Below, in pieces: positions 39,888-56,819 of a stretch of DNA of 64,000 bases (position 1 is the stretch's first letter; every line of letters starts with the position of its first letter). Location: contig CAIUGT010000051.1 of assembly GCA_903898755.1 (NCBI GenBank), positions 1 to 64,000 on the forward strand, read 5' to 3'. The DNA comes from an uncultured bacterium. GTDB taxonomy: Bacteria; Planctomycetota; Phycisphaerae; Phycisphaerales; SM1A02. The notes beneath the pieces were generated by a model that was not told where the DNA came from, ran no database searches, and saw only the letters and a program-made list of their open reading frames with translations. A program made the translations under genes and the position numbers.

Positions 39888-40538
39888 ATGAAAGAAGTCC
39901 AAGACCATTGGTTTCGAAAAGCCAAAGAAGATGGCTATCGCGCGCGCAGTGCCTACAAGTTGTTGGCTATTGACGAGCGCTTTCGAATTTTAAAGCGCGG
40001 CATGCGCGTGCTTGACGCTGGCGCGGCGCCTGGATCATGGACGCAAGTGGCTTCTAAAATAGTGGGCGAACGTGGCGAAATTGTGAGCGTTGATTTAAAA
40101 AAGATCGACCCACGCGGTCTGCCGAAAAATGTGCGTCTTATGTGCGGTGACTTGCGTCAGATTTCATTGGCCGATTTTGGCGGCTATTTCAATGTGATTC
40201 TTTCCGACATGGCGCCTGACACAACGGGCGTGCCCATGGCCGACGCCGCTATGAGCGTGCGCCTATGCCACGCCCTGCTTGATTTATCCAAAGAAGTGCT
40301 CAAAGTTGGCGGCGATTTGGTGATGAAAGTATTTGAAGGCGGTGAATATCTGGAATTACTCGCGCGCGCCAAAAATATATTTTGTGAGGCGCAGGGATAT
40401 AAGCCCACTTCAAGCCGCGCCGAGAGCGTGGAAATGTTCATTGTGTGCAGCCAATACAAAGGACGAAAATTTGATCAGCCAACCATGACCACGCGCGTGA
40501 AGCCGCCGCCTGGTGCTGGTTGGAAAAGCGGCGGATGA
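39888..40538 (+). CDS. rlmE: 23S rRNA (uridine 2'-O) methyltransferase
   Basis: The 216-residue protein is a FtsJ/RrmJ enzyme. The SAM site DAGAAPGSWTQVASKIVG and the K-D-K-E catalytic tetrad are visible: Lys in RSAYKLLAID, Asp in LSDMAPDTTG, Lys in LVMKVFEGGEY and Glu in SRAESVEMFIV. It methylates U2552 of 23S rRNA (E. coli numbering) late in ribosome assembly. The gene lies between the lipoprotein and pdxA genes on the same strand with short gaps (30 and 32 nt). Confidence 0.95.
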   Translation: MKEVQDHWFRKAKEDGYRARSAYKLLAIDERFRILKRGMRVLDAGAAPGSWTQVASKIVGERGEIVSVDLKKIDPRGLPKNVRLMCGDLRQISLADFGGYFNVILSDMAPDTTGVPMADAAMSVRLCHALLDLSKEVLKVGGDLVMKVFEGGEYLELLARAKNIFCEAQGYKPTSSRAESVEMFIVCSQYKGRKFDQPTMTTRVKPPPGAGWKSGG

Positions 40539-40570
40539 ATATTGAATAGGTCATCTATCATTCAAACGAC

Positions 40571-41701
40571 ATGACCACGCACGAAACATCCCAACAACCC
40601 AACGCTCGCTTTGAGCCAGTGATTGCGATCACCATGGGCGACCCCATGGGCATTGGTCCAGAAGTTGTGGCCAAGGCGTTGTGTGATCCAGCGATTTTGC
40701 GGCTGGGAAAATTTGTGGTGTATGGACAAAATCAACCGCTGGTGGATGCCGCGGATCGCGCGGGAATGCGGCCGTTTTGGTTTCGTATTGCCAAGGAAAA
40801 TATTCCAGCAAACCGTGGTGTTGCCGCCGAACCGGTGGTGCTGGATTACGGCCACGAAGATTCTTTGCCGCACGCGCACGCGCCAAGTCGCGCTGGTGGA
40901 TTGTTGTCCAAAGCATTTGTGGAGGACGCAATCGCCGACGCGCTTCGACCTGTTGGAGACGCGCGACGAGTTGACGCGGTTGTGACTGGACCGATTTCAA
41001 AGGAGAGTTGGTCGGTGGCGGGTTTCAAGTGGCCGGGCCACACGGAATTATTCGCTGCTCGTTGCAAAGCCACGCGTCACACCATGCTGTTTGAAAGTCC
41101 GCGTCTTCGCGTGGCGCTTGCCACCGCGCATGTTCCGCTGATGGATATCCGCAATATGCTCACCATTGGCCGCGTGTTTGATCCGATTGATCTTGGCTAC
41201 AACTATTGTCGTCAATTGGGAATTGAGAAACCAAAGATCGCGGTGTGTGGCTTGAATCCGCACGCGGGCGAAAATGGTTTGTTTGGCGATGAAGAAGAGC
41301 GCGTGATTTCGCCCGCCATTGAAATTGCGCGCCGCAATGGCATTGATGTGCGCGGTCCATTTCCAGGCGACACTATTTTTATTGATGCCGCCGCCGGAAA
41401 ATGGGATTTAGTGGTGGCCATGTACCACGACCAAGGGTTGATACCAGTGAAACTTCTGGGCTTTGATCGCGCAGTCAATATCACCATTGGCTTGTCCATT
41501 GTTCGCACCAGTCCAGATCACGGAACTGCGTTTGACATTGCCAAGAAAAACTTAGCAAGTCCCAACAGCATGAAGGCGGCGATTGAACTGGCCGTGAAAT
41601 TGGCGCACGCTAAATTTATTCAGGCGACCCATGCCAAAGAACATGGCGTGAAAGACGCGGCACTTGACGCGCTCAGCTTTGAAGACACGGACGCGGAATA
41701 A
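40571..41701 (+). CDS. pdxA: 4-hydroxythreonine-4-phosphate dehydrogenase
   Basis: The 376-residue enzyme has ITMGDPMGIGPEVVAKAL, TGPISKESWSVAGFKWPGH, VCGLNPHAGENGLFGDEE and MYHDQGLIPVKLLGFDRAV, the classic PdxA motifs including the metal-binding His residues. It oxidises 4-phosphohydroxy-L-threonine in the DXP-dependent vitamin B6 pathway. No other pdx gene is near. It converges with the MFS gene at 6 nt. Confidence 0.95.
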   Translation: MTTHETSQQPNARFEPVIAITMGDPMGIGPEVVAKALCDPAILRLGKFVVYGQNQPLVDAADRAGMRPFWFRIAKENIPANRGVAAEPVVLDYGHEDSLPHAHAPSRAGGLLSKAFVEDAIADALRPVGDARRVDAVVTGPISKESWSVAGFKWPGHTELFAARCKATRHTMLFESPRLRVALATAHVPLMDIRNMLTIGRVFDPIDLGYNYCRQLGIEKPKIAVCGLNPHAGENGLFGDEEERVISPAIEIARRNGIDVRGPFPGDTIFIDAAAGKWDLVVAMYHDQGLIPVKLLGFDRAVNITIGLSIVRTSPDHGTAFDIAKKNLASPNSMKAAIELAVKLAHAKFIQATHAKEHGVKDAALDALSFEDTDAE

Positions 41702-41707
41702 AATACA

Positions 41708-43171
41708 TCAGCCGGTAATGCCCACTTCGCTAGGCTCGATGTCTTCAAGTGATCGACCGCGTGTTTCTTGCGCGAAGATGCTCGTGACCGCCAAGCCAAG
41801 CATGCACACAAACGCCATAAGCAACATGGTCAAGCTGGTTCCGCATTGCTCTTGAACAATTGGCAACAAGAACAACCCCAGCAAAGCCCCCAGTTTGCCC
41901 ACGGCTGAGCAGAGTCCATGCGCCGATGCGCGGATTTTTGTTGGGAACAATTCCGCGGGTAGCACAAACGTTGTTGCATTGGGTCCCATGTTCATGAGCA
42001 AATTAAAAATCATGAAGCCAATGAATGCGCCAGCGACATTGGGACTATTTGTTCCCGTCATTGCGCTCCAGGCAAGAATTCCCAAGCCAACAACCATGCC
42101 GACAAAGCCAACGATTTGCAAGCGCATTCTTCCAACACGATCCACAAGCAACATATTGGCGATGAAACCCAGCACAAGAAAAACACCAAGGCCCGCGGCT
42201 CCGGTGGTTGAAAGAAAATCTTTTCGGATGGGATCGTTCACGTCGTCAAAGGCGAGCGAGGAAAGCAACACTGGCGTGAACACTCCAACGGCATAGGTGG
42301 CAATGTCCATTAGAAACCACGGTACTGAAGCCAAAATAGTTCGCGGCAGAAATTTCTTGGAAAAGAGATCGGCATAGCCCAACTTCTTGGGGGCTTGAAC
42401 GGAAATCCGCAAGGCAAAGCCGGCAATGACGTGATCCAATTCCTTGATTTTTTTTGCTGGAACAAATTGTTCGACAACATGCTGCGCTTCATCAAGTCGC
42501 CCATGCTCCATGAGCCAGCGCGGACTTTCTGGAACTTTGGTTCGAAAAATAAGAACGATGATGGCGGGAAGCGCGCCGAAACCAATCAAAATACGCCAAT
42601 CAGAAATTGCGGGAGTTACGCCAAGTAAAATAATCCCAACCAACGCCGCCAAAATAATGCCGACGGCTTGAAATGAAAATGCGCCAATGAGCATTCTGCC
42701 ACGAAGCCGCGAAGGCATGAACTCCGAAACATAACTTGCGCAAATGGGATAGTCGGCGCCCACTCCAATGCCAAGAAAAAACCGGAACAGAATCAACGAC
42801 CACGGGCCACTTGCGAACGCGCACAGCAAACTGCCAACAATAAACACAATCAAGTCCAACAAGTAAATGGCCTTGCGTCCAAATCGATCAGTGAGCACGC
42901 CGCCAAACACGGCGCCAAACATGGAGCCAAACACTGCGGCGCACGCGATGGCTCCAACTTGGAGCGCGCTTAAGTTCCATTGCAACTTGATCAGCGGCAA
43001 CGCGATACCAATGACGAACAAATCAAATCCATCAAGCATGACGCCCGTGGCGCTGAGCCCCCACACCTTCCAGTGCGCGGTGTTCAGCGTTGATTCATCA
43101 AGCGCTCGCTTGAGCGCTGTCGGATGCGCCGAGGCCTTGCGTATCTGGTTGGAATGCGACTTTGAAGCCAT
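41708..43171 (-). CDS. MFS transporter, metabolite:H+ symporter type
   Basis: The 487-residue protein has 12 predicted helices, the MFS loop GVLTDRFGRKAIYLLD between helices 2 and 3, and PESPRWLMEHGRLDEAQ after helix 6, a motif of the sugar-porter and NiaP-like groups. The closest style is an aromatic-acid or niacin-type proton symporter. A long loop with Lys and Asp-rich tracts separates the two halves. The substrate is unknown. It stands alone on its strand. Confidence 0.85.
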   Translation of the reverse strand: MASKSHSNQIRKASAHPTALKRALDESTLNTAHWKVWGLSATGVMLDGFDLFVIGIALPLIKLQWNLSALQVGAIACAAVFGSMFGAVFGGVLTDRFGRKAIYLLDLIVFIVGSLLCAFASGPWSLILFRFFLGIGVGADYPICASYVSEFMPSRLRGRMLIGAFSFQAVGIILAALVGIILLGVTPAISDWRILIGFGALPAIIVLIFRTKVPESPRWLMEHGRLDEAQHVVEQFVPAKKIKELDHVIAGFALRISVQAPKKLGYADLFSKKFLPRTILASVPWFLMDIATYAVGVFTPVLLSSLAFDDVNDPIRKDFLSTTGAAGLGVFLVLGFIANMLLVDRVGRMRLQIVGFVGMVVGLGILAWSAMTGTNSPNVAGAFIGFMIFNLLMNMGPNATTFVLPAELFPTKIRASAHGLCSAVGKLGALLGLFLLPIVQEQCGTSLTMLLMAFVCMLGLAVTSIFAQETRGRSLEDIEPSEVGITG

Positions 43172-43334
43172 GTTTGCAGGCTATAAAGTCCTCGGCGCAT
43201 CTGTGTTGAAATTATGTTTGAGTTTGATGACTTCCGTTGATTTTCACCACGTGCCCCCATGCTTTGTCGAAACACGAAAGACTTCCAAGTTGTTGCGATT
43301 CAACATGGCAACGGGCGACACGTGGTTATTGCAA

Positions 43335-44081
43335 TCACTTTGGTTTTCGCGTGATCTTTTGAGCGCGGATTTTTGCGGGCGCAGTTTCCAAGACTGGCTT
43401 CACAATTGGATGTGCCATAACAGGTTTCGTAGCGTCGGCTTCAGGTGTCCGCGCGCCACGACGCGCACCCGCGGCCGCAGCCACACCGGCCGCGGCAATG
43501 GCTCCTGGAGTTGGGACCAAACTCCCGTCGACGCGAAGATTATCTATGCGCGCATTTCCGCTTGAGCTAGTCGCACCAGAAAACTGAATTCGAAGTCGAA
43601 GCGCGCCGTTCTCCACGAATGTGAAAGACGACAAATCCATGGAATACAGTTGCCACTGGGTGGTGTTGGCGGAAATATTTCCGACATCTTTCCAAATTTG
43701 ACCGTCCCATACTTGCACCAGCATTCCCGCGAAGCCGCTTGAACTGCGCCGCGCCGCCATGCTGAACTGCAATTGCTTCATGCCCAATGTGTTCACATCA
43801 ATGACAAGCGATTTTGAATTTTGCGTTGTACCGGTGACAGTGAGTGATTGGCCAGCAATGTCGCCGTTGTAAGCGTTGAGATCCGTTCCAACTAAGCCGC
43901 TGAGACCGCCCGTGAAGTCGACAAGTGATAGCCCGCCTTGACCAGCATCAGCTGCGAAAGACGTTGGCACCGCGCCAGTCAATGAATTGAAATTCCACGC
44001 CGCAACCACATCCGCGAACGCGCTTTGAGCGCAGAACAACACCGTCGCCATGGAGGCGAACCATTTTTTGCTTACTGACAT
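43335..44081 (-). CDS. Secreted protein with PEP-CTERM-like tail and C-terminal extension
   Basis: The 248-residue protein has a signal peptide (WFASMATVLFCAQSAFA), a beta-sandwich region beginning VVAAWNFNSLTG as in many Planctomycete PEP-CTERM proteins, and VPTPGAIAAAGVAAAAGARR near the C-terminus, resembling the PEP-CTERM/exosortase sorting signal of this group. Normally the Arg cluster ends the protein; here about 37 more residues follow, rich in Pro, Ala and Lys. The ATG at 44081 follows AAGGAG by 7 nt, which decides the start over the frame to 44153. It lies downstream of the membrane-complex genes on the same strand, but 212 nt away. Confidence 0.7.
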   Translation of the reverse strand: MSVSKKWFASMATVLFCAQSAFADVVAAWNFNSLTGAVPTSFAADAGQGGLSLVDFTGGLSGLVGTDLNAYNGDIAGQSLTVTGTTQNSKSLVIDVNTLGMKQLQFSMAARRSSSGFAGMLVQVWDGQIWKDVGNISANTTQWQLYSMDLSSFTFVENGALRLRIQFSGATSSSGNARIDNLRVDGSLVPTPGAIAAAGVAAAAGARRGARTPEADATKPVMAHPIVKPVLETAPAKIRAQKITRKPK

Positions 44082-44293
44082 TTCCCTACTCCTTATGAAT
44101 TGTTTGACAAACCGTTTTTGAAATTGATCCCAGAAACTATTTCCAGAACGCAATCACGGATTTATTTCCGCGTGGTTCCCTTGTACGACATCGCCAAGAC
44201 CCATTTGAATTTCGCCGCCTTTTTTCCAGAAGATTTTTGGGATTTATTTGTTAGCAGCGGGTTGTCAAGAAACTCTTGTCAAGCCAACTGAAC
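44082..44293. promoter_or_regulatory. Intergenic region before the PEP-CTERM-like gene
   Basis: The 212-nt gap separates two leftward genes. It contains the AAGGAG ribosome binding site at 44089-44094 and the paired 8-mer repeat listed separately. The length and the repeat suggest an own promoter for the secreted protein rather than read-through alone. Confidence 0.35.
44262..44283. repeat. Paired TTGTCAAG direct repeat, possible operator
   Basis: TTGTCAAG occurs at 44262-44269 and again at 44276-44283, 14 nt apart. Read leftward each copy is CTTGACAA, so each also contains a TTGACA -35-like hexamer for the gene at 43335-44081. No matching -10 element was found at normal spacing, so this could be an operator instead. 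Confidence 0.3.
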
Positions 44294-45379
44294 TTACAAA
44301 CCGCGGAAGTGGTTTGGATCGATCAGCCAGAGCCAATCATCGAACAAGAATTCCACACGCGCCGCCAACAACGCAATGCGGCCCATGACCGTGAAGCCAA
44401 ATGACGCGCCGAAGGTGATCATGAGATACCAAATGCCCACGCGCGCCGCGCCGCCGACCACGCCCTTGTGCTCCACGCTGAAGAAGAAATAGGCAAGGCA
44501 ACAAATCACGCCAGCCACCAGCAGCACGTTGGCGACACTGGCCCACCAACTGTCCCACATGTTTGTTGCGCCGGACGCGTCCGTGACGGAAACAAACAGC
44601 GGCTTCATGGTGGCCGCGGCTTGCGCCATTAAATCACTTTCAACATGGCTGACAATTTTCAGCCCCGCCGTAACGCCAACAATAAACGCAAGCGGCCACG
44701 CGCTAATCCAACCGCCGCGCGGCAGCAATCGCCACAACATCATCACGCCAAGAATGAGCGCGAAGATCATGCTGATTTGCTGCAGCTTTTCAGGGGCAAC
44801 CAATGATGGTTGCACCAAACTTTTCACAAGCCCCGGCGTGAGCGCGCCGAACATTTTTGGAACCAGCGTGTCCCAGAAACCAATCACGCCCCAGTACGCC
44901 GCGCTGACTCCAACAACAAGTGATTCCGCAATTTTGTAGAAGGGATTGTCGGCGTACAAGAAACTAAATATGGCCAGCGTGAAGAACGCGGCAAGCCACA
45001 AGCCAATGGTGCGCGGCCACGACAGCGTGATTTCTGTTTGCGCAGGATTTGCTTTTTGCGCGGCGTTGAATTCCAGTGGCGTGACTTGCTTCCACTCTTG
45101 CCATGAAATTGTGGTGGCGCTTGATGAAGCAGTTGACGCGGCGGCTGGAGTCTCCATTGCTTGCGTTGCTGCGGTAGTTGTTGACGCATTGGTTGACCCA
45201 CTCGCCAACGCACTTGGCGCCCCCGCCGCATTATTCACAGCGGCCTCTGGCAATTTCACGGTGACATCTGTGCGCTTCACATACACGCGCCCAAGTCCTT
45301 GACCGATCATTCCACGCGCGACAAGTAGCGCCACAAAGACCGCGCCAAGAACCAACCATGTTTTGCTTTGGCGCGTCAT
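44294..45379 (-). CDS. Seven-helix membrane protein of the GlmL-DUF6754 cluster
   Basis: I do not recognise a family. The 361-residue protein has a first helix (TWLVLGAVFVALLVARGMI), a loop of about 90 residues rich in Ala, Ser and Thr, and then six helices, ending in DDWLWLIDPNHFRGL. The N-terminal KRTDVTVKLPEA suggests a periplasmic stretch. Its ATG overlaps the stop of the previous gene by 4 nt, so it is made together with it. It is probably the last of four consecutive membrane-protein genes of this cluster. Confidence 0.6.
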   Translation of the reverse strand: MTRQSKTWLVLGAVFVALLVARGMIGQGLGRVYVKRTDVTVKLPEAAVNNAAGAPSALASGSTNASTTTAATQAMETPAAASTASSSATTISWQEWKQVTPLEFNAAQKANPAQTEITLSWPRTIGLWLAAFFTLAIFSFLYADNPFYKIAESLVVGVSAAYWGVIGFWDTLVPKMFGALTPGLVKSLVQPSLVAPEKLQQISMIFALILGVMMLWRLLPRGGWISAWPLAFIVGVTAGLKIVSHVESDLMAQAAATMKPLFVSVTDASGATNMWDSWWASVANVLLVAGVICCLAYFFFSVEHKGVVGGAARVGIWYLMITFGASFGFTVMGRIALLAARVEFLFDDWLWLIDPNHFRGL

Positions 45380-46299
45380 GCGGCACCTCTGCGCTTGCGC
45401 GCGAAGAAAATCATGTTGCCAACAATGATTAATCCCACCATGAGCAAATGCGCCACCAACTGCGGACCCATGCGCCGCTGCGCCTGCAAATATTTTGGCG
45501 GCGTCGCCACGCCATCAACCGCAAGCGACGCGTTGACCATGGATTCATATTCCGCCGCGCCTTTAATAGCGCCCAACAATCCAGCGATTTGCTGTGGGAA
45601 ATATGGATACAACTGCGGCGCGCTCACGCCAGTGCAACCCGTGACAAAATTCATTTTCTCGTTGTAGGCGCTGATGACATATTGCACCCACTCTTTGCTC
45701 CCGGGATAGCCCGCGCTAATGCTGATGAGCAGCGGAAAATCTGAAACCATTTTCACGTCCTTCAACATTGGAATATTGCTGGTGGCCTCGCCGCGCGAAT
45801 CTTTTGGAAACGCTTTTGCAAAATCCGTCAGCAGCAATTTCATCACGGCCTCATTGCCAGCTTGATAGCCCATGTTCACAAAGTCATCGCCCTCTTTCAG
45901 CGCGGGATAATCATCGCGAATGACATCTTGAATAGTTTGCTGCGCAACTTGATTGCCCAGCGGCCACAGAGCGATGAACACCATGCGAAGATTTTTGGCG
46001 GCGCACTGGCGCACCAAACTAGTCGCCATGGGTTGCAACTCGCCAGCGCTGGCGGGGTCGTAATCAAAGGAAATCAGCACCAAAGTGCGCGCCGGCAAAT
46101 GATCGATCTCTTCAAAGACCGCGCGCGCGGCCAAGGTTGGCGCCTCGGGCAACGTTTTTCCAGTCACGCCAATCCACAAGATGGGACCAGCCACGGCAAG
46201 AAACATAAGTAGGAAAATCCAGCGGCGATCAATGCGATCGAGCCGCTCAAACCATGGACGCACGGACGCGTTTGTGTTGTTGAAATTGCCGGAACTCAC
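45376..46299 (-). CDS. Membrane-anchored protein of the GlmL-DUF6754 cluster
   Basis: The 307-residue protein has one helix near residues 28-48 (RWIFLLMFLAVAGPILWIGV), a soluble domain of about 210 residues and a C-terminal helix followed by the positive tail FFARKRRGAA. The soluble part, with alternating strands and helices (RTLVLISFDYDPASAG, NLRMVFIALWPLG), looks like an alpha/beta fold. By the positive-inside rule it lies outside the cytoplasm. The GTG start overlaps the stop of the upstream gene, and its own stop overlaps the next ATG. No function is known to me. Confidence 0.6.
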   Translation of the reverse strand: MSSGNFNNTNASVRPWFERLDRIDRRWIFLLMFLAVAGPILWIGVTGKTLPEAPTLAARAVFEEIDHLPARTLVLISFDYDPASAGELQPMATSLVRQCAAKNLRMVFIALWPLGNQVAQQTIQDVIRDDYPALKEGDDFVNMGYQAGNEAVMKLLLTDFAKAFPKDSRGEATSNIPMLKDVKMVSDFPLLISISAGYPGSKEWVQYVISAYNEKMNFVTGCTGVSAPQLYPYFPQQIAGLLGAIKGAAEYESMVNASLAVDGVATPPKYLQAQRRMGPQLVAHLLMVGLIIVGNMIFFARKRRGAA

Positions 46300-46994
46300 G
46301 CGTCACCTCCACCAAGCCAACTGCGATCAATGCCGAAAAGAATTCGCAAGCCCGTGGCCGCAACGCCAAGCGCAATGCCAATCATGATGGCGCGATTGCC
46401 CGCGGTGTTGAACACTTGCATGACATAGATGCTGAGATTTTCCAAACGCAAACCCGACGCCCAGTCAGGGAACCAACCCGTCAGCACTACGCCAGCGAAT
46501 GTGCGGCCAAGCAACACAATAAATGCCGTAACTAAAAGCAAGATGGCTTCTGTGTTCTTGGCGCGAAACGCGCGGAAAGCGGCGCTGGCCACAAAGAACG
46601 CCAGCAACGCAAACATGGTGCTGGTGAGCGGCGTGATCATGTATTCATAAATCCATCCAAAGGCCGAGCCTTCCATTTCATTGCTGCCGCTGTAAGGCGC
46701 CTGTGGAAATTGCTCGTTGGGATGAATGCCAATTTTTCCAAGACCAATGAACAGCGTGATTAAAAAACTTCCAAGCGTGATGATGCTGTAGCCCCAACCC
46801 GCGTCGCGCCTGCTGAGTTTTTCCAAATGTTGTTTGGCCAAACTTCCGGCGCCAAGCACAAACGCGATCGCGGCGACCACGTTGAAAACATCGGCGAACA
46901 TTTCGCCCGCGCTTTCAGCCAGCGGAACAAATGAACTCAGCATCATGGCGAAGCCGCCAATAATTGCGATCCACATTGGAATGATGCGCTTCAT
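46296..46994 (-). CDS. Six-helix membrane protein of the GlmL-DUF6754 cluster
   Basis: The 232-residue protein has six predicted helices, from WIAIIGGFAMMLSSFVP to IGIALGVAATGLRILFG, with a short extracytoplasmic loop around HPNEQFPQAPYSGSNEMEG. I know no family name for it. It starts 3 nt after the stop of the DUF6754 gene and overlaps the next start by 4 nt, so these genes are translated as one unit. Together with the two following proteins it would supply the membrane part of the supposed complex. Confidence 0.6.
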   Translation of the reverse strand: MKRIIPMWIAIIGGFAMMLSSFVPLAESAGEMFADVFNVVAAIAFVLGAGSLAKQHLEKLSRRDAGWGYSIITLGSFLITLFIGLGKIGIHPNEQFPQAPYSGSNEMEGSAFGWIYEYMITPLTSTMFALLAFFVASAAFRAFRAKNTEAILLLVTAFIVLLGRTFAGVVLTGWFPDWASGLRLENLSIYVMQVFNTAGNRAIMIGIALGVAATGLRILFGIDRSWLGGGDA

Positions 46995-46997
46995 GTG

Positions 46998-48101
46998 TTA
47001 GCCACCCAACACTTTCTGCAAGCCGCCCAGGAACCAGCCGACGACCGCGGCATTGGGCGCCATGACAAGAATGGTTGACGCAAGCACGCCCAACGCGATC
47101 AACACCACCACGGCGAATTTGCCAACGTCTTGCCCACGCAAAGTTCCAAGTTGCGCCGGTTCGCCGCTTAAATACGCGCTGGCCGCGAAAAATTCCTCGC
47201 CGATCAATGTGTAATCACAGGCCGCGACAAAGAACGGAAGCTGGCTGCTTTCCGCAGTGCCGGCAATCTGAATTGCCCCGATGGCGTTGCCAGTTTCGGC
47301 AAAAATTAAACTCTCCGCGAAGAAACAGCCCATGTAAAAACAAGTCGCGGGCTTCTCGCGCACCATGGAGCCAACCACGTGAGCCACATATCCAAATTGA
47401 TCGTCGGTGATGTACGTGATGCGGTCGACGGAGAAACCGTCGGCGCGACCAGCCGAAAGATAACTGGCGCGCACCGTGTCGCGGGCAGCTTCCATGACAA
47501 GCGACCGGCACGTTGGCACTTCAATGGTCGCGTCGTATTCGGCGGCGGTCTTTGCAACGCGGCCAAGCATGGTTAAGCCGGCGACTGTTTGAATGTTGTC
47601 CATGTCTTGAATGCCGGGCACGAACAAAATAGATCGACCCATTTCCGTGGCGCGGCCCACCGCGTTGTCCACGGCCTCAAGCGCGGCGATGCGGCGAATG
47701 CGAATTGGCCGACCACTTTTGGCCAACCAAACGGATACTGTGACGGCTCCGCCAATGAACACAATCCAAAGCAAAAGCCAGAGCTTTTCGATGTTAAACC
47801 AAGGGCGCTCGGGCATTGCATTTGGTGTGGCCGCCGAATTGAAATTGGTCGCCGCGTTGACGGGCTCCACCAGCGGCGCGTTTGCGTCTTGCTCTGGCGC
47901 GTTATGAGCCAAAACATTTTCCGCAAATATATCTTGCGCGGCAACAGTTTGCGTGACAGGCGCAACTGACTCACTCATCTCGCTAGAAATTTCAAATGCA
48001 AACACGCGCGCGCAACACATCGCCATGCATAGAAAGGTGGCAACGCATTTCCACGAATGATTCGTGAAGATCCTGCGTGGGACCTTGTGCGTAATGCGCA
48101 T
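46998..48101 (-). CDS. DUF6754-type membrane protein
   Basis: The 367-residue protein has a cleavable or anchoring N-terminal helix (WKCVATFLCMAMCCARVFA), an acidic stretch, a second helix (LWLLLWIVFIGGAVTVSVWLA), a soluble domain of about 190 residues and two C-terminal helices. The soluble domain (MGRSILFVPGIQDMDNIQTV, ATCFYMGCFFAESLIFAETG, DYTLIGEEFFAASAYLSGEP) matches what I remember of DUF6754 proteins; the family name is from memory. Topology suggests it faces the cytoplasm, where the ATPase and the KOW-like protein are. Function unknown. It begins 21 nt after the preceding gene. Confidence 0.65.
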   Translation of the reverse strand: MRITHKVPRRIFTNHSWKCVATFLCMAMCCARVFAFEISSEMSESVAPVTQTVAAQDIFAENVLAHNAPEQDANAPLVEPVNAATNFNSAATPNAMPERPWFNIEKLWLLLWIVFIGGAVTVSVWLAKSGRPIRIRRIAALEAVDNAVGRATEMGRSILFVPGIQDMDNIQTVAGLTMLGRVAKTAAEYDATIEVPTCRSLVMEAARDTVRASYLSAGRADGFSVDRITYITDDQFGYVAHVVGSMVREKPATCFYMGCFFAESLIFAETGNAIGAIQIAGTAESSQLPFFVAACDYTLIGEEFFAASAYLSGEPAQLGTLRGQDVGKFAVVVLIALGVLASTILVMAPNAAVVGWFLGGLQKVLGG

Positions 48102-48122
48102 GCTGCCAATGTAGCCAAATTT

Positions 48123-49250
48123 TTATATCGCGATGCGCTCGACATTGGCGCGAGGCACGGTCACGGTGCCGCCGCGCTCAAGCGCAACTTCTAGCACGCG
48201 CGCCTTGCCGCCAGAGTCAAGCATGGCGGGCATTTCGGGTAGCGCCGAAACTGTTCCCAGCAAACCAAAATGCGGATCACGAATAATTCGCACGGCAACA
48301 CCGGGGGCCAATTCACCGCCGGAATCGTGCGTGATTTCACTTGTGGAGCTAGGCACCTCATCAAGTGGAACAACAATTTCAGGCCGCATCACGCCCGCGC
48401 GAATTTGCGTTGCGCCGTTCACGCTGCATTCGCGCCCTTGATGGCTCGCAAGTAAATCAAATGTGCGACGCGCCATTGCGATCTCGCCGAAACCCTCGGT
48501 CAAAATAAGTGTGAGCCCGCACTTTTCGCTGCCCGTAATAGCCACGCCCAAGTCATAACCAAGAAAATCGCGAAGGTCGGCATCGTCCATGCCGCCAGAA
48601 ACAATCGCCGCCACGCCAAGTGATTTCGCCTTGGCAATTGCCGCGGCCGTCATGCGCGCGCCGCCAATCACAACGCAGCCTTTCATCTCGGGGCGAATTA
48701 AATCTTCGTGCAATTCTTCTTCCGCCGCGCGACACGCAAGCGCAATGGGTCCGCGCGCCTCGCCGCCAACGCCAAAAATTCCTTGCACAAGCGCGGCGCT
48801 GGTTTCGATCACTGCGCCTTCGCCGGCCAACACTTCAACAACGCGCCCGGGCACGTGCGCCATAATTTCAATGGGCTGCGGCGCGCCGCGCAAAAAAACC
48901 ATGCCGCTGGAATCGCTCACGCTTTCAATGGTGCCGGTGGCGGCGGCCTTCACGTCGGTCTTCATCATTCCAAACATTCCCTTGCTGCGCGCCATCACTT
49001 CGCCAGCGGTCACGGCCTCGCCAACTTTCTTCAACATCAAGGAAGGCAAATCTTTTGGAGGACACGCAAGCAGGCTGGCCACTTTCATGGGCGTGACGTC
49101 GCCTTCCAAATGGGTGAACGCGATCACGGTTGCGCCCTGCACGCGGTCGCCCAGCGCCACTTGCACCTTGCCAGCGGTGGGCAAAGCGCGGCGAGTGCGA
49201 TATATGCAACTGGCGCTGACGCGAAGACCTGGTGTGTATGCCTTAGCCAT
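48123..49250 (-). CDS. Barrel-sandwich/KOW-like protein of the GlmL-DUF6754 cluster
   Basis: The 375-residue soluble protein seems to have three parts. The N-terminal third has glycine-rich repeats like biotinyl-lipoyl or RnfC-type barrel sandwiches (PTAGKVQVALGDRV, VGEAVTAGEVMARS, VKAAATGTIESVSDSSG). The middle is a Rossmann-like region (MKGCVVIGGARMTAAAIAKA, GVAAIVSGGMDDADL). The C-terminus resembles a KOW motif (GVAVRIIRDPHFGLLGTVSA). I know no described function. It lies 47 nt after the ATPase gene and 21 nt before DUF6754, and recurring adjacency would make it the cytoplasmic adaptor of the complex. Confidence 0.6.
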   Translation of the reverse strand: MAKAYTPGLRVSASCIYRTRRALPTAGKVQVALGDRVQGATVIAFTHLEGDVTPMKVASLLACPPKDLPSLMLKKVGEAVTAGEVMARSKGMFGMMKTDVKAAATGTIESVSDSSGMVFLRGAPQPIEIMAHVPGRVVEVLAGEGAVIETSAALVQGIFGVGGEARGPIALACRAAEEELHEDLIRPEMKGCVVIGGARMTAAAIAKAKSLGVAAIVSGGMDDADLRDFLGYDLGVAITGSEKCGLTLILTEGFGEIAMARRTFDLLASHQGRECSVNGATQIRAGVMRPEIVVPLDEVPSSTSEITHDSGGELAPGVAVRIIRDPHFGLLGTVSALPEMPAMLDSGGKARVLEVALERGGTVTVPRANVERIAI

Positions 49251-49297
49251 GGGGTGATGAACTTGCTTTGTTATAGATATTCATATTGATTCTTTTT

Positions 49298-51190
49298 TTA
49301 CCCATACACGCGCAACGCCTTAATCCATTTGTTCAAGCACGCGCGGCGCTCAGACAAATCGGTGGGCAAAGCAAGTGGCCTGCCACGCGCGTCAAAGATC
49401 ACGCCAAGGGGACCACCGCGAACTTTGCGCGTGACAGGTTTGCCAGGACCGGCGCCAAAATCAAATCCGCGCTCGGGGCGAACTTCTATGTCCGCCTCCG
49501 CGCCTGGCGAAAGCGCAACTTGCGCAATGTCGCCGCACAGAAGCGCGCCACTGGCGTCGGAATCTTTGTGTTGCGTGCCGACCGAATTGTTTGAAACAGT
49601 CCCCTGCTGCGCATCGCCAGCTTGGGTGATCTTCATGGTCCACGCAAAACACGGCTTGGACATTTTCCCCTGGCCCTTGGCGCTGACCGCGCTGCCCAAC
49701 ACGATCAAGCAATCCTTCTCCACGACTTCAAGCGCGGCCTGCGCATGCACACTTGCGAACACGCCCAAGTGCGGCATCATGAAAATGCTGTCCTTGGCTA
49801 GCTCAGTAAAACCTTCGGGCTCGAAACTATCAAGCAACATTGCGGCGGTTTGCTCAAGACGCGGCGCGTGACTGAGCACGCCGCCGGAAGCCACCAGCAA
49901 ATCCATGCGCATGCGGTCAACAAGGCTTGCACCCGCATCTTGCTGCGCAAAGACATCGCCCACAGTGCGCTGCTGCTGCACCCCTTTCAGATTTGTGGCA
50001 AACGAGCGATGCTGCACAAACGCAAGTCGCAAGGCTTCGCGCGCCACGGCTTGCTCAAAGATGAGCGCCTCCAACGTTTGCGGAATGGTGGTTGGCCGCA
50101 CCATTTTATTTTTCACGCGGTTGCGAAGTTCGCGCTCATCCATGTCCACGTGCACCCATCGCAATACATTGTCCATGCCGGCCTCGGCGCACACATTTGA
50201 AATGGAATAACTCATTCCCAAATTCGCGCTGACCGTTCTATTAAATACGCCGTCGTACACGCTGAACACATCCGTGGTTGCGCCACCAATATCCACACAC
50301 ACCGCGTTAATGCCGCGGCGCTTTGCAATGTCCTGCAGAATGTCGCCCACGGCGCCAGGCGTTGGCATGATGGGCGCGTCGGACCAACTGATAAGTCGGT
50401 CGTATCCCGGCGCGTGCGCCATGACATGCTCAAGAAATACATCGTGAATTTTCTCGCGCGCGGGTCCTAAATTTTCACGCTCAAGCGTTGGGCGCAAATT
50501 GTCCACCACGGATAAGTCAAAGCCAGGCGCGTCAAACACTTTGCGAATGGCGGCCACGGCTTCGCGATTTCCAGCATAAATAAGCGGCAATTGATACTCG
50601 CCGCCAAAACGCGGTCGCGGCTTGGCGGGCGCGATCAGTTCCGCAATTTCAACAACTTTGCGCTGGTCGCCGCCGTCGGTGCCACCAGAAATCAACACCA
50701 TGTCGGGGCGCAGTTCGCGAATGCGTTGAATCTGCTCATGCGGCTTGCGGCGATCATTGCCCGCGATGGTGTCCATGACAATCGCACCCGCGCCCAAGGC
50801 CGCGCGCTTGGCGCTTTCGGCGGTCATTTCTTTCACCACGCCAGCCACCATCATTTGCAAACCACCACCCGCGCTTGATGTGCTGACATACGCGTCGCAA
50901 CCAATTGGGTCGCTGCGCGAAGTGCGGCGAATTATTTTTCCATCATCATCGATCAGGCGGCGGCCAGAAAGTTCTTGCAATTCCATAACGGCGTTGGTCA
51001 CGCCCATGGTTACGTCGGCAAGTGGTTCTTCAACGGTGGTCGGAGCCTCACCGCGAAAAGTTTGGCGCCAGTGCCCATCTTTTTTCTCCAACATGATGGC
51101 TTTGGTGGTGGTGCTGCCGCAATCCGTGGCCACAACAATTTCAAGAGTGTCTTTGTTCAAGCTGCTCTGATTTTTTGCGGCGTCGCTCAT
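49298..51190 (-). CDS. GlmL/MutL-type ASKHA ATPase
   Basis: The 630-residue protein has the ASKHA nucleotide-binding motifs: phosphate-1 VVATDCGSTTTKAIML, phosphate-2 VCVDIGGATTDVFSVY, and a later adenosine region (MDLLVASGGVLSHAP). It matches the GlmL/MutL family named after a gene next to B12-dependent glutamate mutase in Clostridium, where a reactivase role is supposed. No glutamate mutase subunit, other B12 mutase or cobalamin riboswitch lies in this window. Instead it sits in front of DUF6754 and membrane genes. The frame could start at a TTG at 51202; the ATG at 51190 is preferred. Likely an ATP-dependent conformational switch for this complex. Confidence 0.85.
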   Translation of the reverse strand: MSDAAKNQSSLNKDTLEIVVATDCGSTTTKAIMLEKKDGHWRQTFRGEAPTTVEEPLADVTMGVTNAVMELQELSGRRLIDDDGKIIRRTSRSDPIGCDAYVSTSSAGGGLQMMVAGVVKEMTAESAKRAALGAGAIVMDTIAGNDRRKPHEQIQRIRELRPDMVLISGGTDGGDQRKVVEIAELIAPAKPRPRFGGEYQLPLIYAGNREAVAAIRKVFDAPGFDLSVVDNLRPTLERENLGPAREKIHDVFLEHVMAHAPGYDRLISWSDAPIMPTPGAVGDILQDIAKRRGINAVCVDIGGATTDVFSVYDGVFNRTVSANLGMSYSISNVCAEAGMDNVLRWVHVDMDERELRNRVKNKMVRPTTIPQTLEALIFEQAVAREALRLAFVQHRSFATNLKGVQQQRTVGDVFAQQDAGASLVDRMRMDLLVASGGVLSHAPRLEQTAAMLLDSFEPEGFTELAKDSIFMMPHLGVFASVHAQAALEVVEKDCLIVLGSAVSAKGQGKMSKPCFAWTMKITQAGDAQQGTVSNNSVGTQHKDSDASGALLCGDIAQVALSPGAEADIEVRPERGFDFGAGPGKPVTRKVRGGPLGVIFDARGRPLALPTDLSERRACLNKWIKALRVYG

Positions 51191-51364
51191 GTTGATTGGC
51201 AAGCCTACACGCAGCGCGGTGGAATTTGATCAATTCCGTTTCATGTTTCAGATGGGACAGATTTTGAAAATGCCAAGGAAAATTGCGGAGGCTAGGGTTG
51301 TCTGAGCAAAAACCATGGCGTTTAGGCTTTGATTCAGATGGTGGCCATTGGCGATGAATTGTTT

Positions 51365-51778
51365 TCACACTGACGGCTGTGATGGCGGCGCTGACGGCGG
51401 ATTGTTTTTGCTGGCGTGCATTTTTCCCTCGCGCTGAGTTTCCATTTCGTCCATGCGCTGCAACATCCATGCAATTGCTCCGCGTTTATCCAAATAATCC
51501 GCAACTTCTTTCCACGCGTTTTGATCAAGAAGAATTCCGGCGAAGGGCGAAAGCGCTTGCATGCCTTGACCCGTCAACACGCCAAGCGGGCGCCAACTTT
51601 CCAGAAAAATTCCCGCTGGTTGCGCCATGCCGCGCTCCACAATTTTAGAAAGCAATTTTTCTACCACCACGCGCTGCGTGTCGGTGGGTTCGGCTGGACC
51701 AGGCGCGTCCACCGCAAAAGCGTGGCGAATTTTTTCACGCCACGACGCGGACGCCTTTGTATTGAACTTGTCACTCAT
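51365..51778 (-). CDS. Small soluble protein upstream of the GlmL-type ATPase
   Basis: I do not recognise this 137-residue protein. It is mostly helical, with a hydrophobic middle (QPAGIFLESWRPLGVLTGQG, QALSPFAGILLD) that could be an amphipathic or membrane-touching segment, and a Pro/Ser-rich tail. Its ATG at 51778 overlaps the stop of the upstream gene as ATGA, which decides the start over the longer frame to 51823. The ATPase gene begins 174 nt later, so it may belong to the same transcript. Confidence 0.6.
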   Translation of the reverse strand: MSDKFNTKASASWREKIRHAFAVDAPGPAEPTDTQRVVVEKLLSKIVERGMAQPAGIFLESWRPLGVLTGQGMQALSPFAGILLDQNAWKEVADYLDKRGAIAWMLQRMDEMETQREGKMHASKNNPPSAPPSQPSV

Positions 51779-52242
51779 GATGAAACTGTATCCGTGGCCA
51801 CGACTTGCTTGCATTGCATGCACAACTGCTCAATGGCGTGCTTGCGTACTTGCGTGAACTGACCACGGCCAAGTGGCACGACCAAGCGCATTTGCCGCGA
51901 CCGTCGCGAGCCGTGCTGAATCAACAACAACGCGTCGCCGCCATCCTTACACGCCTGAATTGAATCCCATTGCATGCCGCGCACGCGCAGCGGTTCACGC
52001 ACAATTATTTTTGTATCGCTCAGCGCAACATCGGTTGGCAAAAAGAAGCCGATCAGAGCCAAAAACATGCCCATGAGAGCCAGGCTGCCCCACATCCAAT
52101 CGCCCGTGGCAAGCAATACCGCTCCAGCGAGCAGCATGATGATCACGCACGCCACCAAGCCTGTGAATGGCCGATCACGCGCAGGCCAACAGCGCCACTG
52201 CTGAGACAAGGATTTTGTAGATGAGTCCAGAATGTCGCTCAT
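51775..52242 (-). CDS. Two-helix membrane protein with PH-like tail
   Basis: The 155-residue protein has two membrane helices (TGLVACVIIMLLAGAVLLATG, LALMGMFLALIGFFLP) followed by a region of about 75 residues of beta character (VALSDTKIIVREPLRVRGMQ, MRLVVPLGRGQF) that resembles a bacterial PH-type domain. The open frame extends to 52323; the ATG at 52242 leaves out a stretch that looks untranslated. It is the first gene of the supposed cluster and is coupled to the next by ATGA overlap. Function unknown. Confidence 0.6.
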   Translation of the reverse strand: MSDILDSSTKSLSQQWRCWPARDRPFTGLVACVIIMLLAGAVLLATGDWMWGSLALMGMFLALIGFFLPTDVALSDTKIIVREPLRVRGMQWDSIQACKDGGDALLLIQHGSRRSRQMRLVVPLGRGQFTQVRKHAIEQLCMQCKQVVATDTVSS

Positions 52243-52514
52243 TGCGCCTCGCAATGAAATTGAACCACAAAAACTATTTGTATTTCGTGGAGTCGCTTCT
52301 GCATAAACAAATGCTAATGCCATGCCAGAAAAAAGTATTTTTAGAAATTCAACCAGAAAAAGAGTCGCGAAAAAAAAATTTAAAAATATTCAAGTACTCC
52401 GTATCAAATTTTTAAAAATTGCTGAGAAATAAAAAATAAAAATATTCCAAAAAATCCGACATTGCCTCTTGAAATTGCTTTCATTCAACAAGGGCATCTG
52501 TTTACGATGAACTC
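52243..52514. promoter_or_regulatory. AT-rich divergent promoter region
   Basis: This 272-nt gap separates two divergent genes. From about 52320 to 52460 it is strikingly A/T-rich, with runs of A and an AATTTTTAAAAATT palindrome near 52408-52421. This is the likely promoter zone for the GlmL-DUF6754 cluster (leftward) and for the transglutaminase-like gene (rightward). No hexamers with good spacing were found. Confidence 0.45.
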
Positions 52515-54125
52515 ATGCAAATCCACCTCCGACAGACATTCAAACTCTGTGTGATTGGGATGCTTGCTGGTTGCCAAAGCGCATGGAAGACCACCCTGCT
52601 TATGCCGCCGCCACCCGATGCGATCGCGGTGAGCAACGACAAATTGAACGCGGCGCTTTTGAAAGCCGGAAATAATGAATGGCAAATCGAGCGCTTTCTG
52701 AATGACGCTGCTCAAAGCCATGACGACGAAAAATTGGCCGCCGCGCGATGGCTTGTGGCGAACATGCCGGGCCAAGGATTTGCGCGCTATGAACTTGTGG
52801 ACAAGGACAAAAAGGTCATTCCATTTGATCCGATCGCGTGCGGAACATTGGCGCAGGCGCAAACCGTTCTCGAAGCGCTGGAAAAAGATCACGGCGAACT
52901 TGATTTCAAAGTGACGCAATTCACAGAGGATCTCAGCGTGGCGCAAGCGGATTTTCTCACCGCCAATCTGGATCAAAGCCTGCACGCATGGCGCACAAAT
53001 CCTTGGTGCAAAGGCATGTCGTTTCAAACTTTTTGTGAGCGCGTGCTCCCCTATCGCGGCACCAATGAACCGCTGGGTGCTTGGCGCGAAGATGTTCTTT
53101 CGCGCTTAGCGCCACTGCGTGAGCATTGGATCAGCGAGAACTCGCCGTCGCAATCCGTTGGCCAAAGTGCTATGGCGGCCGCAACCGCATGGGTTGCGTT
53201 TAAAGATATTTATTACATGCACCCGCAAGATCAAAGTTGGAGCGAGATGTGCCTGAGCAAGGCGGGTCGTTGCGAGGACATCAGCAATGTCACAAGTTTT
53301 GCGCTGCACGCGGCGGGCGTTGCGGCCGCGAGTGATTATGTTCCCGCGTGGGCCGACCGCGACAACAATCACACGTGGGATGTGTTGCTTGATGGAAATG
53401 GAAAAGGTTCAACTGGGCTTTTCAATCGCACGCTGAAGGTGTACCGCAAGAATTTTTCGCCGCAACCCGACGCGCTTGGTAGCACCCGCGCCAAGGACGA
53501 ACCCGCCGCGCCAGGTTGGCTGCGTGGCGACACATATTCGGATGTGACGGATCAATATGGCGCCACGGTTGAACTTGATCGCACGCTTGAGGCCGCCCCT
53601 GCGGGTCATCGCTTTGCGTATTTGTGCGTGTTCAACGGTGGCGATTGGACGCCGCTTGCATGGAGCCAGGTGAACACCGAAGGGAAGGCGCACTTTTCAA
53701 AATTACGCACAAATGTGCTGGCTTTACCAGCTTATTTCGTGGATGGCAAAGTGAAGCCCGCGGGTCCGCCGGTTCTTGTGCGTGAGAAGAATGAACATTC
53801 ATGGCTTGATGGCGCGCCCGAAAGCGAACCTGCGGAGAAAAAAGAAATTGAAATTGAAATTGCCGCGGTGAGACCAGACACGCCCGATCACGACACGCAG
53901 ATCACGCGTCCTCGCTTGCCCGTGAAAGCCGGCGCGGAGTACACGCTTCAATCATGGTGCAATGGCGCATGGAAAGAAGTTGGCAAGGCCGCCGCGCCAG
54001 CGGATGGCAGCGCGGTTGCGTTCGCGCATGTTCCGGCGAATCAATTGTTGTGGCTAACCACGCCCGACGGGAAAAAACTTGAGCGCCCGTTCACCGTTGA
54101 AAATGGCAAGCAAGTTTTTTGGTGA
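52515..54125 (+). CDS. Lipoprotein with transglutaminase-like core
   Basis: The 536-residue protein has a lipoprotein signal with lipobox MLAGC, a helical N-terminal part, and a transglutaminase-like core: Cys in AGRCEDISNVTSFALHAAG (about residue 255), His and Asp in NNHTWDVLLDGNG (about 280), giving the Cys-His-Asp triad of that superfamily. The last 200 residues look like beta domains. Bacterial proteins of this type are often cysteine proteases or cross-linkers; the activity here is inferred. It diverges from the GlmL-DUF6754 cluster. Confidence 0.7.
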   Translation: MQIHLRQTFKLCVIGMLAGCQSAWKTTLLMPPPPDAIAVSNDKLNAALLKAGNNEWQIERFLNDAAQSHDDEKLAAARWLVANMPGQGFARYELVDKDKKVIPFDPIACGTLAQAQTVLEALEKDHGELDFKVTQFTEDLSVAQADFLTANLDQSLHAWRTNPWCKGMSFQTFCERVLPYRGTNEPLGAWREDVLSRLAPLREHWISENSPSQSVGQSAMAAATAWVAFKDIYYMHPQDQSWSEMCLSKAGRCEDISNVTSFALHAAGVAAASDYVPAWADRDNNHTWDVLLDGNGKGSTGLFNRTLKVYRKNFSPQPDALGSTRAKDEPAAPGWLRGDTYSDVTDQYGATVELDRTLEAAPAGHRFAYLCVFNGGDWTPLAWSQVNTEGKAHFSKLRTNVLALPAYFVDGKVKPAGPPVLVREKNEHSWLDGAPESEPAEKKEIEIEIAAVRPDTPDHDTQITRPRLPVKAGAEYTLQSWCNGAWKEVGKAAAPADGSAVAFAHVPANQLLWLTTPDGKKLERPFTVENGKQVFW

Positions 54126-54151
54126 TGCATTGATTCACAATCTGCATTCGT

Positions 54152-54177
54152 GTCAATGAAGATCCATCTTCATTGAC
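54152..54177. terminator. Perfect inverted repeat between convergent genes
   Basis: GTCAATGAAGA at 54152-54162 pairs perfectly with TCTTCATTGAC at 54167-54177 around a 4-nt loop, TCCA. It sits 26 nt after the stop of the transglutaminase-like gene and 12 nt from the end of the converging cupredoxin gene, so it probably ends transcription from both sides. No T-run follows. Confidence 0.6.
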
Positions 54178-54189
54178 GGGCGGAAATTG

Positions 54190-55050
54190 TCATTGCACTT
54201 TGAGTTTGCCATTCATCATGCGCCAGTGACCTGGGTAGGTGCACACCAACGGATACGTGCCCGCCTTGGCGGGAGCAATGAACCACAACACGCCAGTTGT
54301 GTTTGGAGCAGTTAAACCCATGATTTCAAGCACTTTTGGTGAGTCGGGAACATATTGACGCTGCTTGCCGATGGCGCCTTCGCCAAGTTTGTCGGCGGCC
54401 ACGCCAATTTCACTGAGAGATCCTGGACTGCACACCAGCATGTTGTGCTGCATGGAATCTGGATTGACCATTTCAATGGCAACGATTGCGTTTGGGGCGA
54501 CAGCAAATTCCTTTGGGTCCCACGCCATCTTTCCTGGCACGCTTGTGGTCTTCAACATGACGGGCTTCCAAGCGGCAGCCGCCGCGGGGCGATCAGTTTC
54601 TGGCAAGGCAAAGATGGCGCGAATGCACGCGGCTTTCACAAATCGACTTGTTGATACATGCGGTGAATCTTTGTCCGCATCTTTGGCGGAGTCTTGGGTC
54701 TTGCTCACAAGAGTTGGCGCAAGCGATTTTAAATCCGCGGCAGGTTGAGCCGCAAGAATGGTGGCAAGATCATTGCGCGCAAGGCACGCGTCGCACGCTT
54801 CAATTTCCGACAAGGTTGCCGCGGCTATGGAAACAGAAGCGCTCTTGGCTTTGGCGGCCAGCGCCACCACACGATCAGCCTGCGCAACACCCGCGTCACG
54901 CAGTGGATTTGCCGACTGCGTATCTGTGACAGCACTAGTCATTGGCGCAGAATGCGCATGATTTCCCGCTTCTGGCGTGCTTTGAGCGCTTGCAAGATTT
55001 GGCGGAATCGCAAGAACGCAAAGGCACAATGCGCAATGAGAAAATTTCAT
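54190..55050 (-). CDS. Secreted azurin/plastocyanin-like cupredoxin protein
   Basis: The 286-residue protein has a signal peptide (HCALCLCVLAIPPNLASAQ), a helical middle with Ala-rich segments, and a C-terminal cupredoxin domain of about 130 residues. Type 1 copper ligands are visible: His in MQHNMLVCSPG, then Cys and His in LVCTYPGHWRMM with a Met after them. The domain resembles that at the end of large Planctomycete haem-binding proteins, but here it occurs without that part. It should carry electrons in the periplasm. The electron partner is unknown. Confidence 0.82.
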   Translation of the reverse strand: MKFSHCALCLCVLAIPPNLASAQSTPEAGNHAHSAPMTSAVTDTQSANPLRDAGVAQADRVVALAAKAKSASVSIAAATLSEIEACDACLARNDLATILAAQPAADLKSLAPTLVSKTQDSAKDADKDSPHVSTSRFVKAACIRAIFALPETDRPAAAAAWKPVMLKTTSVPGKMAWDPKEFAVAPNAIVAIEMVNPDSMQHNMLVCSPGSLSEIGVAADKLGEGAIGKQRQYVPDSPKVLEIMGLTAPNTTGVLWFIAPAKAGTYPLVCTYPGHWRMMNGKLKVQ

Positions 55051-55103
55051 ACGTTCACAATAGCGCAGGGAACACTTGTTTGCGAAGCGGCTATCGAATC
55101 GCC

Positions 55104-56819
55104 CTACAACGGCGCGGGCGTAACATCAATCTCATACAGCGTGACATTGCCGCTGCCTTCATTGCACACAACAAGAAGCGGCTTGCCATTGGGGCTTTGA
55201 TCTGGCGCGATATACAAAATTCCCTCAGGCGCAATGTCCCCCGCTTCCAAGGCGTGATCGGGCTTGCCATCTTTATCGGTGTCATTATCCAAGTCCACCG
55301 TTGGGTCGCGCGGATTCACGTACGCCAAAAAATTTGGATGTGACGGATCGGAAATATTCCACGACATAATTCCACCAGCGCGCTCAAGCACGCAAAATAA
55401 AATTCGAACTCCATTGATGGTGGCCACAATGGGCGTCTCGGGCTCGGGACCTTTGGAAGTGCTGCGTGCGTCGCGACTGGGGCTTTTCATACTGTCCATG
55501 TTGAAAGCCTTGGGCATTTGCTGCGAAATCACGCGCTCAATTTCATCACCGGAATCCCATGTTTGCTCGATAAAACCGTTCGGCGAAACTTTCCAAATGC
55601 TGACTGAACGACCTCCAAAACAGAAGACGCGGTCGAAATCGCCATCTCCATCGTCGTCACCACGCAAAGAACTTACTTTCAAGCGGCCCATATTTTCCGG
55701 CTTCGACAAATCCTGCACGCGCATTGTGTTGGCAGCGCCAAGTTGCTTGGCGAAAGATTCCTCATCAATGGCGGAGGCTTTTCCTTTGCCATTACTTTTG
55801 CCATTGCTTTGCGCGTTCTTTAATTTTCCAAATTGCACCGCCTCGGTAAAATCATCACGCTCGCGGTCTTCGCCTTCATTGGCGGTGACCAAGTAACGCG
55901 CGCCACCATTTTCAAAGCATGCGACACCATCTGGTTGGTACAAACCAAACACCGGAAGATTTTGAATGTGATTCGCGCCATCTTTATCGCTGGCGTCAAG
56001 GCCGCAGCCAGGCTTCATGAAATCTTTGAAGCCCAGCGGCTCTATGCGCTCCACCCGCTCATGTCCTGGTGCAAGATCAATAACCGCAATGGCGTTATTT
56101 TCCTGTAGAGTGGCGTAAGCCTTGGTGTCGTCGTTTGAAAGAGCCATGTATTCAGGCTCAATTTCCTGTGAAAACCCTGCGTTTGGCGTGACCATATGCA
56201 TGCCTCGCTTGACCAAATCCGTTTTCTGTTTTTCAAACGCATCAAATCCGCAATCGCGAACAATTGGCTTGTCGGCGCCGCTCGAAATATCCACAACACC
56301 AATCGAACCAACTGGATCACTGTGTCCGTCGGTTGGCGCTTCGCCTTCATTGGCAACAAGCAATCGCTTGCCATCGTGCGTGAATTTAATCATGTCGGGA
56401 TTGAAACCAACTTCAACTTTGGAAATTTTATTTCCGTCAAGATCAAAAAAGCTCACTGAGCCATGCACATCCTTGCTCTTGGGCTGGCTTGCAATCGCGA
56501 TCACATTGCCACCCACGGCTACGCTGTTCAGTCCGAATTGCCGAATGGTTTTAAATTGCTCGGGCTTTGTTGGATCGGCAATGCTGATGCATTCCAATCC
56601 TTCCGCGTTGTTGGTGAACCACAATCTTTTATTCACGGGGTCATACGCGGGAATTTCCGCGCCGGACATGTTCCACCAACTCGTTTGGAAACGGCTGAGC
56701 ACATGCAACTTCAAGGCGCATTCAATTGTTGCGCCAGAGGGAACACTTGCCGATGATGGCGGAGTTCCAAAATCAATTGCGCACACACATACGACGAGGA
56801 GATGAATCGCGTTCAGCAT
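55104..56819 (-). CDS. Secreted choice-of-anchor I family beta-propeller protein
   Basis: The 571-residue protein has a signal peptide (IHLLVVCVCAIDF) and beta-propeller repeats of the choice-of-anchor I type (FNPDMIKFTHDGKRLLVANE, LSNDDTKAYATLQENNAIAV, FENGGARYLVTANEGE). The closing ILYIAPDQSPNGKPLLVVCN is also typical. No C-terminal sorting signal is visible. Family members are surface proteins of unknown task; some are annotated as phosphatase- or esterase-like. The open frame extends to 56921, but the ATG at 56819 begins the signal peptide. It diverges from the ebo-like cluster. Confidence 0.82.
   Translation of the reverse strand: MLNAIHLLVVCVCAIDFGTPPSSASVPSGATIECALKLHVLSRFQTSWWNMSGAEIPAYDPVNKRLWFTNNAEGLECISIADPTKPEQFKTIRQFGLNSVAVGGNVIAIASQPKSKDVHGSVSFFDLDGNKISKVEVGFNPDMIKFTHDGKRLLVANEGEAPTDGHSDPVGSIGVVDISSGADKPIVRDCGFDAFEKQKTDLVKRGMHMVTPNAGFSQEIEPEYMALSNDDTKAYATLQENNAIAVIDLAPGHERVERIEPLGFKDFMKPGCGLDASDKDGANHIQNLPVFGLYQPDGVACFENGGARYLVTANEGEDRERDDFTEAVQFGKLKNAQSNGKSNGKGKASAIDEESFAKQLGAANTMRVQDLSKPENMGRLKVSSLRGDDDGDGDFDRVFCFGGRSVSIWKVSPNGFIEQTWDSGDEIERVISQQMPKAFNMDSMKSPSRDARSTSKGPEPETPIVATINGVRILFCVLERAGGIMSWNISDPSHPNFLAYVNPRDPTVDLDNDTDKDGKPDHALEAGDIAPEGILYIAPDQSPNGKPLLVVCNEGSGNVTLYEIDVTPAPL

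Follow-up and report, generated by a model that had tools for sequence, protein, structure and literature searches.

The window analyzed here, a 64,000-nucleotide stretch of DNA from an uncultured bacterium, contains a run of genes in which an ATPase of the GlmL/MutL family is encoded beside several membrane proteins, and the question that this locus raises is whether these genes form a system of their own and, if so, what the ATPase does in it. As shown in Table 1, all ORFs of the cluster were found at their expected place on the minus strand. The first-pass annotation had described eight consecutive leftward genes; the orientation held, but the range given covers nine ORFs. The ninth was excluded from the system because it begins 140 nt downstream of TM361 and its homologues are confined to the window's lineage and a few neighbors. 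By eye, its product has a PEP-CTERM-like tail, and the ORF trails the cluster only among the window's relatives and at loci L050-L056. The tight spacing of the genes was also borne out: 47 nt separate MutL from BSH, 21 nt BSH from DUF6754 and 3 nt DUF6754 from TM232, and TM232/TM307 and TM307/TM361 each overlap by 4 nt. B152 and MutL are 162 nt apart, and the 174 nt claimed previously is obtained only if MutL starts at the ATG at 51190; a further gap of 107 nt was not reproduced. For B152, initiation at the ATG at 51778 is more probable and gives a 4-nt overlap with A182, weak homologues of which occupy the same position in other loci and the soluble part of which is, by eye only, possibly PH-like. 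Scans for promoters and terminators gave a signal no better than that of shuffled sequence. On the opposite strand, at 52515-54125 (+), a divergently transcribed gene encodes a protein whose match to the transglutaminase core is weak (E 0.003).

Table 1. Genes of the cluster in the window and fused MutL-BSH genes in other loci
Feature	Position	Strand	Description
A182	51775..52323	-	small protein, 2 TM helices plus a soluble C-terminal portion (ORF, hydropathy); alternative start, ATG at 52242
B152	51365..51823	-	small soluble helical protein
MutL	49298..51202	-	MutL/GlmL-family ASKHA ATPase, 634 aa; PF13941, 427 bits
BSH	48123..49250	-	barrel-sandwich protein with C-terminal KOW-like part; candidate adaptor
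DUF6754	46998..48101	-	PF20539, 386 bits
TM232	46296..46994	-	polytopic membrane protein, no family match
TM307	45376..46299	-	two-TM protein with large alpha/beta domain
TM361	44294..45379	-	polytopic membrane protein, no family match
Ninth ORF	43335..44153	-	secreted protein; left out of cluster
MutL-BSH fusion	L151:7275-9749		membrane module not nearby
MutL-BSH fusion	L152:8810-11317		membrane module not nearby
MutL-BSH fusion	L150		membrane module not nearby

A scan of genome contigs yielded 49 DUF6754 loci, mostly in planctomycete-labelled MAGs but also in one labelled Latescibacterota (L073) and in another bacterium (L077). Most of them keep the order (A182)-B152-MutL-BSH-DUF6754-TM232-TM307-TM361, and the same gene set was present in 40 stretches from other genomes, so the neighbors do recur together, which the first-pass annotation had named as one of two points on which the idea of a separate system would stand or fall. 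MutL lies within the same locus in 35 of the 49 cases; some of the remaining loci are truncated where the contig stops, and L037 and L044 are among the few in which it is out of reach. Homologues of B152 are found immediately 5' of MutL in many loci, in all three groups. Within the window's genus, DUF6754 was detected in 9 of 13 genomes, and the window contig is therefore no stray. Conserved neighboring genes such as PdxA, zwf/pgl and a peptide ABC ATPase were rejected as members, being either lineage-limited or too common.

Further, in a sample of 199 genomes from the phylum to which the window belongs, DUF6754 was found in 50, MutL over its cut-off in 53 and both in 45 (Fisher p 1.4e-30, which is descriptive because the genomes are not independent); of the DUF6754 genomes that break the pattern, most are incomplete assemblies. 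The TM307 profile matched 51 of the 199 genomes, all 50 DUF6754 genomes among them. Given this co-occurrence and the recurring order, the cluster is real and reflects more than chance. Two additional samples gave similar results, with both proteins present in 47 of 60 genomes of G199's phylum and 72 of 80 of G200's phylum; the three samples share no genomes and are read as three phyla. In G200's phylum, DUF6754 occurs in 74 of 80 genomes, often in 2-6 copies, mostly with one canonical MutL (DUF6754:MutL 6:1 in G348 and 5:1 in both G350 and G352). In several genomes, G024, G105, G122 and G088 among them, the parts lie at distant loci and all are retained, which indicates more than operon hitch-hiking. 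In G024, DUF6754-BSH, MutL and TM307 are at ∼0.29, 0.79 and 3.5 Mb, respectively, and in G122 and G088, B152-MutL-BSH is found away from DUF6754-TM232-TM307-TM361. These split loci make two parts visible, an ATPase part and a membrane part.

The assignment of the ATPase to the GlmL/MutL type was confirmed by its score of 427 bits to PF13941 and by a complete set of nucleotide motifs. In an alignment of 36 sequences, the phosphate and adenosine ASKHA motifs are essentially invariant, as is a DxRGR motif that ends the C-terminal extension, and MutL is thus predicted to hydrolyze ATP. Although it shares the Pfam family and the nucleotide motifs with the methylaspartate mutase accessory protein GlmL and with OR-4, the window-type ATPase is longer (∼600 aa with the extension, compared with ∼460), sits on a long branch, and is partnered by BSH and membrane proteins in place of a mutase. 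It also falls below the NCBIfam cut-offs for GlmL (235 against 475), OR-4 (219 against 600) and glmL_fam (165 against 204), as do the ATPases of L110, L140 and L141. In a tree built with a quick method and midpoint root, in which some branches are long and details are provisional, the DUF6754-associated ATPases form a clade of their own (SH-aLRT 99), adjoining MutL-BSH pairs and fusions and far from mutase-associated GlmL. Among the window's closest relatives is the Phycisphaerales-labelled locus L032, the MutL of which is 96% identical to that of the window. The phosphate-2 region also matches the hydantoinase A/oxoprolinase ASKHA enzymes (PF01968) at the Pfam cut-off, but only ∼36 residues align and the protein as a whole fits MutL.

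The first-pass annotation called the next gene product a barrel-sandwich/KOW-like protein. From the window protein alone this is weak (13.9 bits to RnfC_N/NQRA_N against a Pfam cut-off of 25.6, and an SPT5 KOW match in the C-terminal part at E 0.017), but it gains support from relatives, 13 of 25 of which match Biotin_lipoyl (best 3e-5), with RnfC_N matched by 6 of 25 (1e-5) and NQRA_N by 2 of 25 (6e-4) at E<0.01. RnfC and NqrA are likewise soluble barrel-sandwich proteins encoded beside membrane proteins; however, Rnf/Nqr subunits are absent among the partners here. A role as biotin or lipoyl carrier was ruled out because the acceptor lysine is not invariant (K 47, R 6, Q 1 and T 1 among 55 sequences). 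In relatives of the window proteins, a single open frame encodes a MutL domain that runs on into a BSH region (scores against the BSH profile, 108 bits in L151 and 96 bits in L152), and these natural fusions support the pairing of ATPase and adaptor proposed earlier, with MutL and BSH predicted to act together. Several long ORFs that resembled fusions of DUF6754 or TM proteins were overlapping frames in GC-rich DNA, and only MutL-BSH held. Second MutL-BSH pairs, unlinked to the system, are encoded at L153:8891-11832 and L154:2001-5017 in genomes that also carry it.

As annotated, DUF6754 is a full-length match to PF20539 (386 bits, over the cut-off, profile positions 2-251 of 257). It has an N-terminal signal/TM segment, a TM helix at ∼107-127, an alpha/beta domain and a C-terminal TM segment, and the mean net charge around its TM helix (0.8 before and 4.2 after) suggests that the alpha/beta domain is cytoplasmic. 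In TM307, by comparison, the mean net charge is 1.4 before the first TM helix, 0.0 after it and 2.0 after the second, and its alpha/beta domain is probably extracytoplasmic. Structure models were confident for TM307 (pLDDT 92.8) and moderate for DUF6754 (77). TM232, TM307 and TM361 gave no Pfam match over cut-off, DUF6754 and TM307 matched no PDB sequence, and profile comparison revealed no homology between subunits. The best Foldseek matches for DUF6754 and TM307 (E 2.6e-3 and 3e-4, TM-scores ∼0.2-0.3, rmsd >12 Å) were rejected as generic Rossmann-like, and no structure-based name was adopted. Several loci carry the membrane module in tandem copies, and the tandem DUF6754 proteins within one operon belong to different clades. 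Many relatives of DUF6754, those of L049, L110, L133 and L140 among them, have an extracytoplasmic N-terminal region that looks FN3-like by eye and is not confirmed by Pfam; the window protein has only a short linker there.

We consider the main reading, with a probability of roughly 45%, to be a conserved two-part machine in which a soluble ATPase-adaptor acts on a single inner-membrane module or on several of them, probably in transport or envelope assembly. The soluble part would consist of MutL, the BSH adaptor and B152, and the membrane module of DUF6754, TM232, TM361 and TM307. Genomic data support the membership, the co-retention, the MutL-BSH partnership, the topology signals and the copy-number asymmetry; the docking site, the energy coupling and the substrate are what we infer. 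In the proposed mechanism, the docking site for ATPase and adaptor would be DUF6754's cytoplasmic domain. The nucleotide cycle would then perform conformational work on the membrane module, most likely so that an envelope component is transported or assembled; with several modules present, one ATPase part would be shared by all. The earlier proposal of a separate system came through with respect to both recurrence and the mutases examined (below), whereas that the MutL/BSH pair drives the membrane proteins is something we infer. Transport or envelope assembly is suggested by the topology, the shared engine and the extracytoplasmic domain, and transport is a guess from architecture, as neither DUF6754 nor TM307 has a convincing match among solved structures or PDB sequences. 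Against this machine, MutL-BSH is also found without an adjoining membrane module (L151-L154), so the pair has another use, and the 99% complete genome G153 (locus L148) has B152-MutL-BSH but no match to DUF6754 or TM307.

More tentatively, the motor could be an ASKHA ATPase (actin/Hsp70 fold), and not an ABC or AAA+ protein, with a barrel-sandwich adaptor through which several paralogous membrane modules are energized. This would constitute an undescribed class of ATP-powered inner-membrane machine, present in apparently three phyla: Planctomycetota, that of the Latescibacterota-labelled genome, and one more. We know of no ASKHA ATPase that serves as a transport motor, and if this one powers the membrane module, then a new energy-coupling principle is at work. 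About a quarter of the genomes sampled from the window's phylum retain the system, as do most of those from the two others, and its job is probably a basic envelope function. Of its four membrane subunits, only DUF6754 has a family match, and that is to a DUF; the other three fit no named family. DUF6754 was named in none of the open-access literature searched, a scope outside which most subscription papers fall, and a search of the same literature for GlmL returned only noise or unrelated work and nothing on this cluster. The ATPase family is already known; the system appears new in that its membrane subunits are common to no characterized system.

Two other roles are the main rivals to the ATPase-adaptor machine. 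As a chaperone or reactivase, a role proposed for GlmL, MutL might use ATP to assemble or reset the membrane module or another membrane-bound enzyme, and not to power transport. Family kinship to GlmL and the existence of MutL-BSH without a membrane module favor such a role, and one ATPase per several membrane modules fits it as well as it fits a motor. However, the four membrane subunits are dedicated, an extracytoplasmic domain is among their features and co-retention is near-perfect, which suggests a stoichiometric component, and Pfam recognized no catalytic family in the membrane module; on balance, we regard this role as unlikely, although it merits serious attention.

Somewhat less probable still is a scaffold or signaling complex, in which the ASKHA protein would connect a cytoplasmic structure and membrane proteins, the nucleotide serving as a switch. 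PilM, GspL and FtsA are actin-like ASKHA-fold proteins that work with inner-membrane partners, and the ASKHA fold, the extracytoplasmic domain of TM307 and weak FtsA and MreB-like matches in the fused MutL-BSH relatives are consistent with this analogy. Those matches, however, are generic to the superfamily, the window's membrane partners match no Pfam family but DUF6754, and a neighborhood survey found no division, pilus or secretion (T2SS) genes conserved beside the cluster.

That the ATPase is an accessory of a B12-dependent mutase encoded elsewhere, as the Pfam and NCBIfam names of its family and the one MM-CoA-type mutase of G000 (on a different contig) might imply, is highly improbable given its sub-threshold GlmL scores, its separate clade and the distribution of the glutamate and MM-CoA-type mutases. 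Glutamate mutase (PF06368 over cut-off) was present in only 3 of the 199 genomes (G010, G040 and G098), none of them with DUF6754, and was thus absent from all 50 DUF6754 genomes, as well as from G000; the pairing of MutL with DUF6754 noted in the first-pass annotation occurs without it. Similarly, the MM-CoA-type mutase (PF01642) was found in 31 of the 50 system genomes and in 114 of the 149 others and is therefore not enriched; with 19 of the 50 lacking it, neither mutase always accompanies the ATPase. These comparisons cover two mutase families, glutamate mutase and the MM-CoA type. Consistent with the original description, the cluster has no adjoining mutase gene, and within 40000-56000 there was no match to any Rfam family, the cobalamin riboswitch among them. 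If the reading of a separate system is true, it corrects the automatic labelling of these ATPases as glutamate-mutase proteins. One genome, G197, in which glutamate mutase E had no match over cut-off, carries three GlmL-like genes (L149, L159 and L160).
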